Source of the DNA: a virus
DNA: 23,340 nucleotides
Strand: one strand, 5' to 3'
IMG/VR virus record: IMGVR_UViG_3300020457_001513
Span: 1-23,340 of that record
This document shows, piece after piece, positions 2,096 to 13,743 of this stretch (positions are counted from its first letter, which is position 1; each line of letters begins with the position of its first letter). The translations under genes and the position numbers were made by a program. The notes below the pieces were generated by a model. It was not told where the DNA came from. It searched no databases and saw only the letters and a program-made list of their open reading frames with translations.

Positions 2096-2403
2096 TGTTA
2101 ACAATATTAGAAAAAGCAAAAAGCAGATTAAAACATTTAACATTAGCAAATGGTAAGAAATTTGTTAGACTATCTGTTAAAGGTGGTGGTTGTGCTGGTT
2201 TTGGTTATGATTGGTCATTTGAAAATGACAAAAATGAGAAAGACATACTCATAGATGATTTATTACTAGTGGATCAAATATATGAAATGTATATAATGGG
2301 TATGCAATTAGATTATAAAGATGATGTATTTGGTGCTAATTTTGTATTTAATAATCCTAATGCCAAATCCTCTTGTGGTTGTGGCACATCCTTTTCTATT
2401 TAA
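2095..2403 (+). CDS. A-type iron-sulfur carrier protein (HesB/IscA/ErpA-like)
   Basis: A 102-residue protein starting at the ATG that overlaps the previous stop (TAATG). An upstream in-frame ATG at 2074 is inside the preceding gene and would add seven residues not typical of the family. The three cysteines that define A-type carriers are present: C33 in GGGCAGFGY and C94/C96 in SSCGCGTSF at the extreme C-terminus. Family members hold or pass [2Fe-2S]/[4Fe-4S] clusters to apo-enzymes in the cytoplasm. HesB-like genes are known from marine T4-like phages. Its last 8 bases overlap, tail to tail, the end of gp4 on the other strand. In this window it could supply clusters to the cysteine-rich U32-like protein encoded at 10257; that link is inference. 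Confidence 0.88.
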   Translation: MLTILEKAKSRLKHLTLANGKKFVRLSVKGGGCAGFGYDWSFENDKNEKDILIDDLLLVDQIYEMYIMGMQLDYKDDVFGANFVFNNPNAKSSCGCGTSFSI

Positions 2404-2827
2404 AGCCTAATTGTTTTTCAGTAATTAATTTAAATTGCATATTATTTTTATTACAATATGCTTTTGCAGCTGACCATTTGGCTTTGTTTTTGATATAGTT
2501 AAATGATTCACGCATAAATGATTTAGTTTTGCGTTTAGGTGTTTTAGGTCTAACTATTTGTCTTGATGGTTTAATTTCTATCATATACTTTGAATTGTTA
2601 ATTGTCTTGATAACAAAATCTGGAAAGTATCTATGAAATTTCTTGTCAATAGGATTATAATATCTGATAGGCAATTCTTCACTTGCCCAATGTAATATAT
2701 CAGGATTTAGGTCGCAATAACGCATAAACCTACGCTCTAATAATGACCTGTATACAATCATATTAGGATCACCAACATACTTTTTTGGGTGTTCTGGTTT
2801 GTATATTCCTTTATAACTCTTCTTCAT
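2396..2827 (-). CDS. 4: Head completion nuclease-like protein gp4
   Basis: A 143-residue protein on the minus strand. It matches T4 gp4 along its length: start KSYKGIYKPEHPKKYVGDP, then IVYRSLLERRF, then FHRYFPDFVIK, then YMIEIKP. These hold a PD-(D/E)XK (TnsA-type) arrangement: E31, D70, and E84-x-K86. In T4, gp4 is needed to finish packaged heads before tails attach. The C-terminal third is rich in Lys/Arg, fitting DNA contact. It is the only head-assembly gene here and is embedded, in reverse orientation, between a tail gene block and gp48. It overlaps the Fe-S carrier gene by 8 bases at the 3' end. No TATAAATA late promoter is seen upstream on the minus strand, which is odd for a late protein. 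Confidence 0.85.
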   Translation of the reverse strand: MKKSYKGIYKPEHPKKYVGDPNMIVYRSLLERRFMRYCDLNPDILHWASEELPIRYYNPIDKKFHRYFPDFVIKTINNSKYMIEIKPSRQIVRPKTPKRKTKSFMRESFNYIKNKAKWSAAKAYCNKNNMQFKLITEKQLGFK

Positions 2828-10093: not shown

Positions 10094-10254
10094 ATGGACT
10101 ACAAGTGCTTTGGTATTTGTTAACAAACTGGGAAGAAGGTAAAGGTCTTTGGTTTATAATTGCAATTGCAATGGTTGCTTTATGTTTATCAATTATATCG
10201 GATAGATATGGCAATGATGTAAAAGTTAAACCAGAAGATTGGCATCCATATTAA
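10078..10254 (+). CDS. 58-residue single-span membrane protein
   Basis: ATG at 10078 is preceded by GAGGAG at 10064-10069. The protein has a polar N-terminus with two Trp residues, a hydrophobic helix (about residues 23-41, LWFIIAIAMVALCLSII) and a hydrophilic tail ending KPEDWHPY. The good ribosome binding site and the two-base gap to the U32-like gene support it. It may be a membrane partner for the metabolic genes that follow, but nothing shows that directly. Confidence 0.55.
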   Translation: MYDEMNGLQVLWYLLTNWEEGKGLWFIIAIAMVALCLSIISDRYGNDVKVKPEDWHPY

Positions 10255-10256
10255 TA

Positions 10257-11087
10257 ATGAAAATAAGTTGTTCAAGTAGAGCGAAAGAGCCAGGCGTTCC
10301 TATACAAGTACATTTAGATTTACACATAGAAAGAGCAAAAAGATTTGCTCCATTTAATTTTAAATATGAAGATATAGATTGTGTTTATGGACAAGTAGAA
10401 GAATATATTCCATTATATGGTGGAAGACCTGCATACTGGCCAGAAATAATGAAACACGATTTACCTTTTGTATATGATAATGGTATTGGTGTTAAATTAA
10501 CTTTACAAAATAAAACACCAACAGAAGAAGCATATAAGAAAAGTAAATCAGCATTAAAAGAATATAATAGAAAAGGAAACGCTGTTATTGTTAATAGTGA
10601 TAAGTTAGCAGAATGGATTAAAAATGATTTTTCTAATTATAATATAGAAGCAAGTTGTATACAAGATATTACTGATAATGAAAAGTTTGAAAAGAAAGCT
10701 GCATTAGGTTTATATGATACAATTGTTTTACCTATTCATTGTAATGATGATATGAAATTTATAGAAAGTATTAAAAGAAAAGATTTGTTAAGATTGTTTA
10801 TGAATATAGAATGTTCTTATAATTGTCCTAGTAAGACTTGTTATGGAACAACATCTAAAATTAATTTAGAATTAAAAAGAAAATTTGTTTGTAGTTTAAT
10901 ACATCTAGGTCAAGAACGATCCTTTTATAATGATGATATAAAATGGGATGAATTTTATTTTGATTTAAAGAAATATGAAGCAATGGGTATAAATAAATTT
11001 AAGTTGGTTACGCCAATTGAACAACAACAAAGAACAGCATTAATGTATAAAAGAAATCATAATCAATTAGCAAAGTCAGTAGTATGA
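10257..11087 (+). CDS. U32-like TIM-barrel protein with a Cys cluster motif
   Basis: A 276-residue cytoplasmic-type protein starting at the ATG that follows the previous stop by two bases. The alternating strand-helix pattern includes GIGVKLTLQN (76-85), NAVIVNSDKLAEWIK (108-122), NIEASCIQDI (129-138), YDTIVLP (153-159), and near the end YEAMGINKFKLVTP (240-253). This order (strand for a neighbouring locus, a 'go to the next residue' helix, a final GIxxFKLxxx strand) is typical of the U32 peptidase-type TIM barrel. A cysteine motif ECSYNCPSKTCYG holds C186-x3-C190-x4-C195, with further Cys at 5, 42, 134, 162 and 212. Known U32-type proteins such as UbiU/UbiV bind a 4Fe-4S cluster. Whether this one does is inference. 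It overlaps the HemB gene by 4 bases (ATGA), so the two are translationally coupled. Exact function unknown. Confidence 0.5.
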   Translation: MKISCSSRAKEPGVPIQVHLDLHIERAKRFAPFNFKYEDIDCVYGQVEEYIPLYGGRPAYWPEIMKHDLPFVYDNGIGVKLTLQNKTPTEEAYKKSKSALKEYNRKGNAVIVNSDKLAEWIKNDFSNYNIEASCIQDITDNEKFEKKAALGLYDTIVLPIHCNDDMKFIESIKRKDLLRLFMNIECSYNCPSKTCYGTTSKINLELKRKFVCSLIHLGQERSFYNDDIKWDEFYFDLKKYEAMGINKFKLVTPIEQQQRTALMYKRNHNQLAKSVV

Positions 11088-11935
11088 GATTAATACAACC
11101 AATATTCGCTAGTTATTCTACAAGAGAAACTGGACTAGGAGAAGATAATAAAATCTATAATGCGTGGAAAGAAGTTAATGAACGTGTTAAGAAAGATATG
11201 GATTTAGGTGTAAAAGAATTTCTTTTATTTTATATTCCAGAATTTAAATTAGGTGAGAAAGCAGATACACATAGAGGCAACGAACATATAGACGCTCATA
11301 AGTTTGACCAAGTGTGTGTTACCGCTGCCAGTCTTTCAAGAGATATACAACCAGAAAATAGATTGATTGTAGATTTATGTTTATGTTCATACACGCAAGA
11401 TGGTCATTGTTGTATTATAGGTGACCAAGAAAAAACAGATAAGTTATTATTACAATCCGCAAAAGATATTTACACAGCGTCTGGTGCTACAATAGCGCCA
11501 AGTGATTGCCAAGATAATACGGTTAAAAATATTAAATCATTAAAAGATGGTAATATAGATGTTATGAGTTATAGTACAAAGTTTCGTTCTACTTTTTATA
11601 GAAACTGGAGAAGTGCTATGAAGATAGCAAAAGGTATTTACAGACCATATCAATTAGATGTTGATGATAGAGAAGGTGCAATTGAAAGGTCAGTAAAATA
11701 TTCAAATGATGGTGCAGATGAATTAATGGTTAAACCAGGTATTACGAGTTTAGATTTAATTAAACCTATCAAAGAAGCAACTGGTAAACCTGTTGGTGCT
11801 TATCAAACATCTGGAGAATGGTTAGGTATAGGTGCTCCAGGCAGTTTAGAAGAAACTTATGATATATTCAAAAGAGCTGGTTGTGATTATATGATTACTT
11901 ACGGAGCAAGGAGATTAGCGTCATTATATTCATAA
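11084..11935 (+). CDS. hemB: Porphobilinogen synthase (delta-aminolevulinate dehydratase), HemB
   Basis: A 283-residue TIM-barrel enzyme. HemB joins two 5-aminolevulinate molecules into porphobilinogen, the first common tetrapyrrole precursor of heme. Family signatures are all present: DLCLCSYTQDGHC with zinc-type cysteines C99, C101 and C109; APSDCQDNTV (138-147); MSYSTKFRSTFY (161-172) with Schiff-base lysine K166; ADELMVKPG (211-219) with catalytic K217; and PVGAYQTSGEW (236-246). The end FKRAGCDYMITY is also typical. The usual HGHCG is DGHCC here, so one conserved His is changed. The protein begins at the DLIxPIF strand, about 28 residues into the E. coli enzyme, so the N-terminal arm that packs subunits into octamers is missing. 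No longer start fits because the gene begins inside the end of the upstream gene. Heme-precursor supply during infection is the inferred role. Confidence 0.88.
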   Translation: MRLIQPIFASYSTRETGLGEDNKIYNAWKEVNERVKKDMDLGVKEFLLFYIPEFKLGEKADTHRGNEHIDAHKFDQVCVTAASLSRDIQPENRLIVDLCLCSYTQDGHCCIIGDQEKTDKLLLQSAKDIYTASGATIAPSDCQDNTVKNIKSLKDGNIDVMSYSTKFRSTFYRNWRSAMKIAKGIYRPYQLDVDDREGAIERSVKYSNDGADELMVKPGITSLDLIKPIKEATGKPVGAYQTSGEWLGIGAPGSLEETYDIFKRAGCDYMITYGARRLASLYS

Positions 11936-11943: not shown

Positions 11944-12555
11944 ATGACGACTACGTATGAAATAATAGAAGACCTAGATATTAATTTAGAAGAGTTAAGA
12001 AAGTGTTATGAAGAGTTTAAAGAGAAAAAAGGTTTTTCTACAGATAACCCAGCAAATATAGATTTCAATGCTATATGCGTCAACCGTAAGCCTGGGGATC
12101 CAAAATCAATATCTGGTGGTAATGTCCGTGGAATCTATTGGACCCGTCCTGATGATTCAGGTAAAGAAGAACAAAGATGTGAGAAAGTTGAAGAAGAAGA
12201 ATACACCGAAATATGTCCAGAATTTAAAGGAACGTATGTTCAAACTCTTTACGATTACTTAAAGTTAAGATTCAAACTAGGTCGTGTTCGTTTTCTAATG
12301 AAACCACCTAGAAGTTGTTTAAGTTGGCATAGAGATCCAGACAAAAGATTACATATTCCTATTACTACAAATAAAGGCTGTAAGATGGTTATTGAAGATG
12401 AAGCGTTCCATATGCCAGCAAATGGTAATGGTTATATAACTGACAATACTAGATATCACAATTTCTTTAATGGAGGCGAAACGCAAAGAGTTCACCTAGT
12501 TGCGGTGTTGTTAAATGACGAAAATGATGATTATTTTATGAAAGAAGATTATTAA
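11944..12555 (+). CDS. 2-oxoglutarate/Fe(II) oxygenase, aspartyl-hydroxylase type
   Basis: A 203-residue protein. The N-terminal half is charged and helical. The C-terminal half (about 110-190) is a double-stranded beta-helix with the motif SWHRDPDKRLHIPI: iron ligands H129-x-D131, distal H172 in RYHNFFNGG, and R182 in QRVHLVAVL ten residues later, the usual 2-oxoglutarate-binding spacing in the aspartyl/asparaginyl hydroxylase family. The predicted reaction is O2-dependent hydroxylation of a protein or small substrate with release of succinate and CO2; the substrate cannot be read from sequence. Such oxygenases are common in marine T4-like phages. It follows hemB and has its own promoter-like element directly before the ATG. 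Its last 4 bases overlap the convergent membrane protein gene. Confidence 0.78.
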   Translation: MTTTYEIIEDLDINLEELRKCYEEFKEKKGFSTDNPANIDFNAICVNRKPGDPKSISGGNVRGIYWTRPDDSGKEEQRCEKVEEEEYTEICPEFKGTYVQTLYDYLKLRFKLGRVRFLMKPPRSCLSWHRDPDKRLHIPITTNKGCKMVIEDEAFHMPANGNGYITDNTRYHNFFNGGETQRVHLVAVLLNDENDDYFMKEDY

Positions 12556-13191: not shown

Positions 13192-13375
13192 ATTTACCGA
13201 TGGTAAAGAAATAAACGAAGAGATAACTTCTAATAGTTGGAAAAAAGCAGTTAAATCTTTTCAAAATAAAGTAAAAAGTAAATTAATCTATATTGAATGG
13301 ATTAGTAAAAAAGGCGTAGAGATGACAAAATGGCAAACACTACCAATAGGTAGAGAAAAGAAGTTAGGTAAGTAA
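13169..13375 (+). CDS. Hypothetical small basic protein
   Basis: A 68-residue, Lys-rich protein with a beta-strand/helix pattern: VFKFTDGKEI, then a helix (SWKKAVKSFQNKV), then LIYIEWISKKG. It has no Cys and no membrane segment. It begins inside the Cys-rich gene and shares one base with the bL12 start (TAATG), so it is translationally coupled to bL12. I do not recognise the family. Confidence 0.7.
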   Translation: MAKERVFKFTDGKEINEEITSNSWKKAVKSFQNKVKSKLIYIEWISKKGVEMTKWQTLPIGREKKLGK

Positions 13376-13743
13376 TGGCAAATATTGATACGTTAGTTGA
13401 AGAGTTAGGAAAGTTAACTGTACTAGAAGCTGGTGAATTAGCAAAGAAATTAAGTAAAGAATGGAATATTGATTTAGATAATTTAGCACAAGCAGGCGCA
13501 CCTGCTCAAGCAGCTGCTGAAGCTCCATCTGAATTAAAAAAGATTACATTAAAATCATTTAAAGAAAACTCAAAAATACCTGTTATCAAAGTAGTAAGAA
13601 GTATATTAGATTTAGGTCTATTAGAAGCAAAGAATTTCGTAGAAGCTTTACCTAAAGAGATTAAATCTGATTTAGAAAAAGACGAAGCTGATAAGATAGT
13701 TAAAGATTTAGAGGCTGCAGGTGGGGAAGTAGAAGTTAAGTAA
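13375..13743 (+). CDS. rplL: Ribosomal protein bL12 (L7/L12), phage-encoded
   Basis: A 122-residue protein, essentially the normal bL12 length. Residues 1-34 match the N-terminal dimer and stalk-binding domain (LVEELGKLTVLEAGELAKKL); residues 38-53 are the Ala/Pro-rich hinge; residues 54-122 are the factor-binding C-terminal domain with IPVIKVVRSILDLGLLEAK (K72, R75, G81) and the ending AAGGEVEVK, almost as in bacterial bL12. The usual LKEAK is LLEAK, so one positive residue of the factor-binding helix is lost. bL12 recruits and activates EF-G, EF-Tu and initiation factors on the ribosome. Viral bL12 copies are known from marine viruses. It is flanked by one-base overlaps on both sides and sits in a late operon with a structural gene, so it should be made late and may exchange into host ribosomes. 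Confidence 0.93.
   Translation: MANIDTLVEELGKLTVLEAGELAKKLSKEWNIDLDNLAQAGAPAQAAAEAPSELKKITLKSFKENSKIPVIKVVRSILDLGLLEAKNFVEALPKEIKSDLEKDEADKIVKDLEAAGGEVEVK

Follow-up and report, generated by a model that had tools for sequence, protein, structure and literature searches.

Porphobilinogen synthase (PBGS, HemB), which produces the earliest ring unit of heme, is the textbook enzyme regulated by assembly switching, and its N-terminal arm is the part that switches. The known enzymes (PF00490; E. coli 1b4e and 1i8j, human 1e51 and 1pv8) are TIM barrels with Schiff-base lysines, a zinc-type cysteine triad and a common set of lid residues. The arm functions in octamer formation and in lid closure, with the arm of a neighbouring subunit packing onto the barrel at the allosteric magnesium interface and stabilising the closed lid (PMC535902, PMC7729013). 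In human PBGS an arginine occupies the site spatially equivalent to the allosteric magnesium (PMC7729013).

Some phage genes for tetrapyrrole metabolism have already been published, namely those for AlaS (vAlaS), HemO and PcyA/X (PMC11480375), for HemF and HemC in deep pelagimyophages (PMC7029224), and for ferrochelatase in pelagiphages (PMC9599517). They concern the same host group and the same pathway as the gene described here, and some of the phages discussed below carry AlaS, HemO and FDBR, as in the published set. The published texts searched do not name HemB or HemE, and contain neither a HemF-HemC-HemE-HemB cluster nor an armless enzyme. More generally, no report of phage HemB, phage HemE or an armless HemB was found in the open-access literature searched, where absence is not proof. 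PHROGs contains no ALAD family, BFVD has no ALAD match, and no close phage isolate was found for the HemB described here, in line with the initial annotation that HemB is not a well-described phage gene.

The window, which here means the whole stretch of viral DNA analysed (23,340 nucleotides), forms a T4-like module of tail and baseplate genes, encoding tube cap, hub, gp25, gp6, gp8 and gp9/10. At the DNA level it is related to the Pelagibacter phages Mosig EXVC030M and HTVC008M. The hemB gene (Table 1) lies among these virion genes on a viral contig and has SAR11 hemB as its host homologue, as expected of a phage auxiliary metabolic gene. No other hem gene is present within the window.

Table 1. 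Features of hemB and its immediate surroundings, in window coordinates.
Feature	Position	Strand	Basis or remark
C13, conserved cysteine-rich protein of 276 aa	10257..11087	+	Overlaps the start of hemB; alternative TTG start at 10239
In-frame TAA stop, 8 codons 5' of the hemB ATG	11060..11062	+	Sequence; excludes an in-frame arm
hemB, armless porphobilinogen synthase	11084..11935	+	PF00490, E 2.9e-48; PDB matches to PBGS in sequence and fold; 81 viral relatives
C99, C101 and C109 codons, zinc-type triad DLCLCSYTQDGHC	11378..11410	+	Invariant in viral alignments
K166 codon (E. coli K195, Schiff-base lysine)	11579..11581	+	Alignments
Active-site lid region RSTFYRNWRSAMKIAKGIYRPYQL	11585..11656	+	Lid Arg kept, then a one-residue deletion
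R202 codon, at the E. coli allosteric-Mg Glu232 position	11687..11689	+	Alignments
K217 codon (E. coli K247, Schiff-base lysine)	11732..11734	+	Alignments
Asp/Arg beta-hydroxylase-type 2OG oxygenase	11944..12555	+	PF05118, E 2.7e-9; downstream of hemB

The gene starts with ATG and encodes 283 residues. The product scores 165.1 bits against the Pfam ALAD profile (gathering cut-off 24.6), covering positions 27-316 of 317. A sequence search of the PDB returned PBGS only, the best match being the E. coli enzyme (4e-28). An AF2 model built on an alignment of 16 viral sequences (pLDDT 80.8) has the PBGS barrel fold, the top Foldseek matches being PBGS crystal structures with TMq of about 0.80-0.83. 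The profile search and the structure matches thus confirm the original assignment to the HemB family. The NCBIfam scores fall below the PBGS equivalog cut-offs (155.7 against 297 bits for NF006762, and 119.7 against 507 for NF009923) because the arm is missing and the sequence has diverged, both of which lower the score; the protein is therefore to be regarded as strongly divergent.

It had also been proposed that every catalytic signature is kept, and this is correct. Residues C99, C101, C109, K166 and K217 align with E. coli C120, C122, C130, K195 and K247 and do not vary among 16 aligned viral sequences. The two lysines, neither of which is substituted, sit in SYSTK and VKP motifs, and PVGAYQTSGE is found at residues 236-245. 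In 25 viral representatives D118, C120, C122, C130, S165, K195, Y201, R205, Q220, K247, S273 and Y312 (E. coli numbering) are all unchanged, while the position of E. coli Y270 is Phe in some viral copies. An apparent loss of the lid residue Arg216 proved to be a matter of alignment only, the arginine standing 11 residues past Arg205 as in E. coli. The allosteric magnesium ligand Glu232, which is found in a subset of bacteria, is absent both from the window HemB and from its SAR11 relatives. Its position holds a basic residue (Arg or Lys) in each of the 20 armless representatives, and a serine in the freshwater viral copies and in those of SAR11. The phage enzyme therefore differs from the known E. 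coli and human enzymes in having no N-terminal arm, shorter loops, a lid one residue shorter, and a basic residue in place of Glu232.

One could argue that an ALAD-fold enzyme has here turned to a different substrate, perhaps in some other amino-ketone condensation, and makes little porphobilinogen. Identity to bacterial HemB is 36-40% (about 37% to SAR11 HemB), the scores are below the equivalog cut-offs, Tyr270 has become Phe in some copies, and most viral hemB loci have non-heme neighbours (C13, 2OG oxygenases, PolB). However, the lysines and the zinc triad are unchanged, as are D118, S165, R205, Q220, S273 and Y312, and HemC, HemE and HemF, which carry out the next steps of the pathway, adjoin hemB in several different arrangements. 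We consider a change of substrate unlikely, and retain the assignment as a porphobilinogen synthase.

The initial annotation noted that about the first 28 residues are missing. In the alignment residue 1 of the window HemB corresponds to residue 29 of E. coli PBGS, so that 28 residues are absent; the protein begins at the first barrel strand, and the usual (non-catalytic) assembly arm is lacking. The arm cannot be regained in frame because of the upstream TAA (Table 1), and the ATG of hemB is overlapped by the stop of the preceding gene (ATGA). Related phages were checked for an in-frame extension that might restore the arm, and they do not have one: full-length viral relatives of at least 47% identity have at most 13 open codons 5' of hemB, and the same armless start. 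At one of the more distant loci, with 43-44% identity (L151), up to 30 N-terminal residues are possible, given an earlier start. Supply of the arm by a separate upstream ORF was rejected, since C13, DUF454 and small 62-aa ORFs vary among the phages and match no HemB model.

The assembly is metagenomic, and a number of phage-labelled INPHARED records containing HemB of 29-32% identity (OR847151, OR844993, CAKLQH020000030 and others) look like bacterial DNA. It was thus necessary to consider whether the armless gene is an artefact, arising from a wrong start, a frameshift, truncation or decay of the gene, or contamination by bacterial DNA. The upstream stop, and the same start in all the full-length relatives of at least 47% identity, argue against a wrong start codon or a frameshift. 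Contamination of the window is rejected because T4-like tail genes flank hemB and many contigs carry relatives. The dN/dS of viral hemB is about 0.1 (0.09-0.18, with pairs containing L018 left out as a one-codon gap is not aligned), in the range of purifying selection. The present data refute an artefact.

Two scans of IMG/VR yielded 81 viral loci with identities of 43-100%. In a tree of 82 rows the 34 viral HemB rows form a single clade (100/99), which is sister to the SAR11/Pelagibacteraceae clade (100/96), a placement that calls for caution as the internal branches are long. The bacterial rows are the best-scoring matches from one scan, and a closer unsampled relative is possible. The SAR11 enzymes (L062-L089) share with the phage enzymes an LIQP(L/I)F first strand and neighbours from the same pathway, the operon being hemC-hemB-hemE-hemH-hemF-hemJ; they differ in having Ser at position 232 and in keeping about 18 arm residues. 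The marine viral copies begin right at the first barrel strand, whereas freshwater viral copies have N-terminal remnants of about 4-13 residues. Copies with such remnants and 43-44% identity come from phages in which a T4-type capsid gene adjoins hemB (L154). Since the closest bacteria already have a shorter arm, its loss looks stepwise: most bacteria have about 28 arm residues, SAR11 about 18, freshwater phages 4-13 and marine phages none.

A survey was made of 142 genomes of the SAR11 class (the class of a SAR11-type genome). Among the 112 that are ALAD-positive, none of the essentially full-length matches is armless: they start at ALAD profile positions 2-4, except for three that start at 17-18, and no start is close to 27. 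In two further SAR11-type genomes the match starts at positions 13 and 16. Within the sample surveyed, the armless form is seen only in viruses.

The arrangement of the viral loci gives further information. In 26 of the 81, hemB adjoins hemC, hemE or hemF. The order HemF-HemC-HemE-HemB occurs in 12 contigs (several of them nearly identical), HemF-HemB-HemC in 8, HemF-HemB in 3, HemE-HemB-HemC in 2 and HemB-HemC in 1. The remaining 55 loci, many of which are short fragments, have no second hem gene near hemB. The identities of HemC, HemE and HemF were checked with Pfam and NCBIfam. HemC, HemF and the HemE of L121 pass the NCBIfam equivalog cut-offs and the HemE of L137 does not; the phage HemC retains its cofactor Cys and Asp. 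The HemE (uroporphyrinogen decarboxylase) genes adjoining hemB are of two divergent types (L137:7027-8004 and L121:3719-4711).

Five of 14 phage records encode a full-length PF00155 enzyme (E < 1e-66), and all three of the proteins tested pass the TIGR01821 model for AlaS (5-ALA synthase), with 566-580 bits against a cut-off of 338.6. Heme oxygenase (HemO) and a bilin reductase are found in three phage records, and the 107-kb record behind L149 has matches for seven enzymes: AlaS, HemB, HemC, HemE, HemF, HemO and bilin reductase. HemD and ferrochelatase were not found in the 14 records, although these may be fragments and such absences carry little weight. With related viruses carrying up to seven heme and bilin genes, hemB belongs to a viral toolkit for the heme pathway and is not a stray gene. 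The benefit first suggested for the phage was a supply of heme or vitamin B12-type precursors. Since relatives of the gene occur within clusters of hem genes, a phage tetrapyrrole toolkit is the better description of this presumptive benefit.

C13 adjoins hemB in several phages, and in others (L166-L186) lies near thyX with no hemB. It has six invariant cysteines (C5, C134, C186, C190, C195, C212) and a CSYxCPxKxCY motif and matches nothing in Pfam, NCBIfam or PDB, and its AF2 model has an unusably low pLDDT of 33. It is possibly an Fe-S protein. Its identification as a divergent HemE or HemD was rejected, given the lack of matches and its occurrence by thyX without hemB. In L026-L032, hemC stands in place of the downstream 2OG oxygenase. 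In some phages a small membrane protein of the DUF454 (YbaN) type adjoins hemB (L004:768-1178; L006:4018-4434), and in another phage a small protein of similar look adjoins alaS (L200:2517-2981), so that a link of this protein type to tetrapyrroles is possible. A protein with a DruA-like domain (PF14236) is encoded directly 5' of hemB at L023:6895-8004; the same phage encodes PolB, RecA and DnaB.

It is worth adding that the window contains a homologue of ribosomal protein L7/L12 in which both domains are present (PF00542 and PF16320) at 13375-13743, in the same place as in T4-like relatives. In the baseplate module towards its left there is an A-type Fe-S cluster carrier-like gene (PF01521, 2074-2403), and a protein with a TnsA-N-like endonuclease domain (PF08722) is encoded on the opposite strand within the structural module (2396-2827, minus strand).

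On the basis of these observations, the phage protein is very probably a trimmed, catalytically competent PBGS, which serves as a module in a tetrapyrrole pathway of phages in a SAR11-type host. We infer its activity, zinc use, host and benefit as follows. The enzyme would condense two molecules of 5-aminolevulinate to porphobilinogen, with Schiff bases at K166 and K217 and a catalytic zinc at C99/C101/C109, in the infected SAR11-type cell. Different phages would contribute subsets of AlaS, HemB, HemC, HemE, HemF, HemO and bilin reductase, leaving the host to supply HemD, ferrochelatase and protoporphyrinogen oxidation, and the product may be heme for respiration, bilins, or both. With the arm gone, the phage enzyme would lack the arm-to-barrel interface at which the known enzymes stabilise the closed lid and bind the allosteric magnesium. 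An altered oligomeric state, as the initial annotation suggested, is therefore a plausible hypothesis, and the phage enzyme may function without allostery in a smaller oligomer, for which a dimer is the likeliest form.

The specific absence of the known assembly control element (PMC535902, PMC7729013), together with the basic residue at the allosteric magnesium position of the armless copies, could also suggest that the viral subunit acts mainly on the host HemB, joining or competing with host subunits and locking one assembly state. Identity to SAR11 HemB is however only about 37%, purifying selection acts on the viral copy, whose active site is complete, and phages with AlaS-HemB-HemC-HemE-HemF point to flux rather than to a decoy. 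Control of the host enzyme is thus highly improbable, and a catalytic module is preferred. A more detailed proposal, which we make tentatively and which falls a little short of being probable, is that the enzymes of the marine viral clade are armless PBGSs by nature, active as a dimer or other low-order oligomer with no octamer-hexamer switch, that their arm was lost stepwise, and that they work in phages which encode nearly all of the route leading from glycine and succinyl-CoA to porphyrins and bilins.

The hemB gene of the window is a variant of a known enzyme family, in a partly known phage theme that is now considerably widened. Viral tetrapyrrole metabolism is extended from isolated genes to clusters, with up to seven genes in one phage record, and why phages of nonphotosynthetic ocean bacteria make tetrapyrroles becomes a directly testable question. 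A natural family that has no arm and yet has an active site would reveal the purpose of the arm, and whether catalysis needs it.
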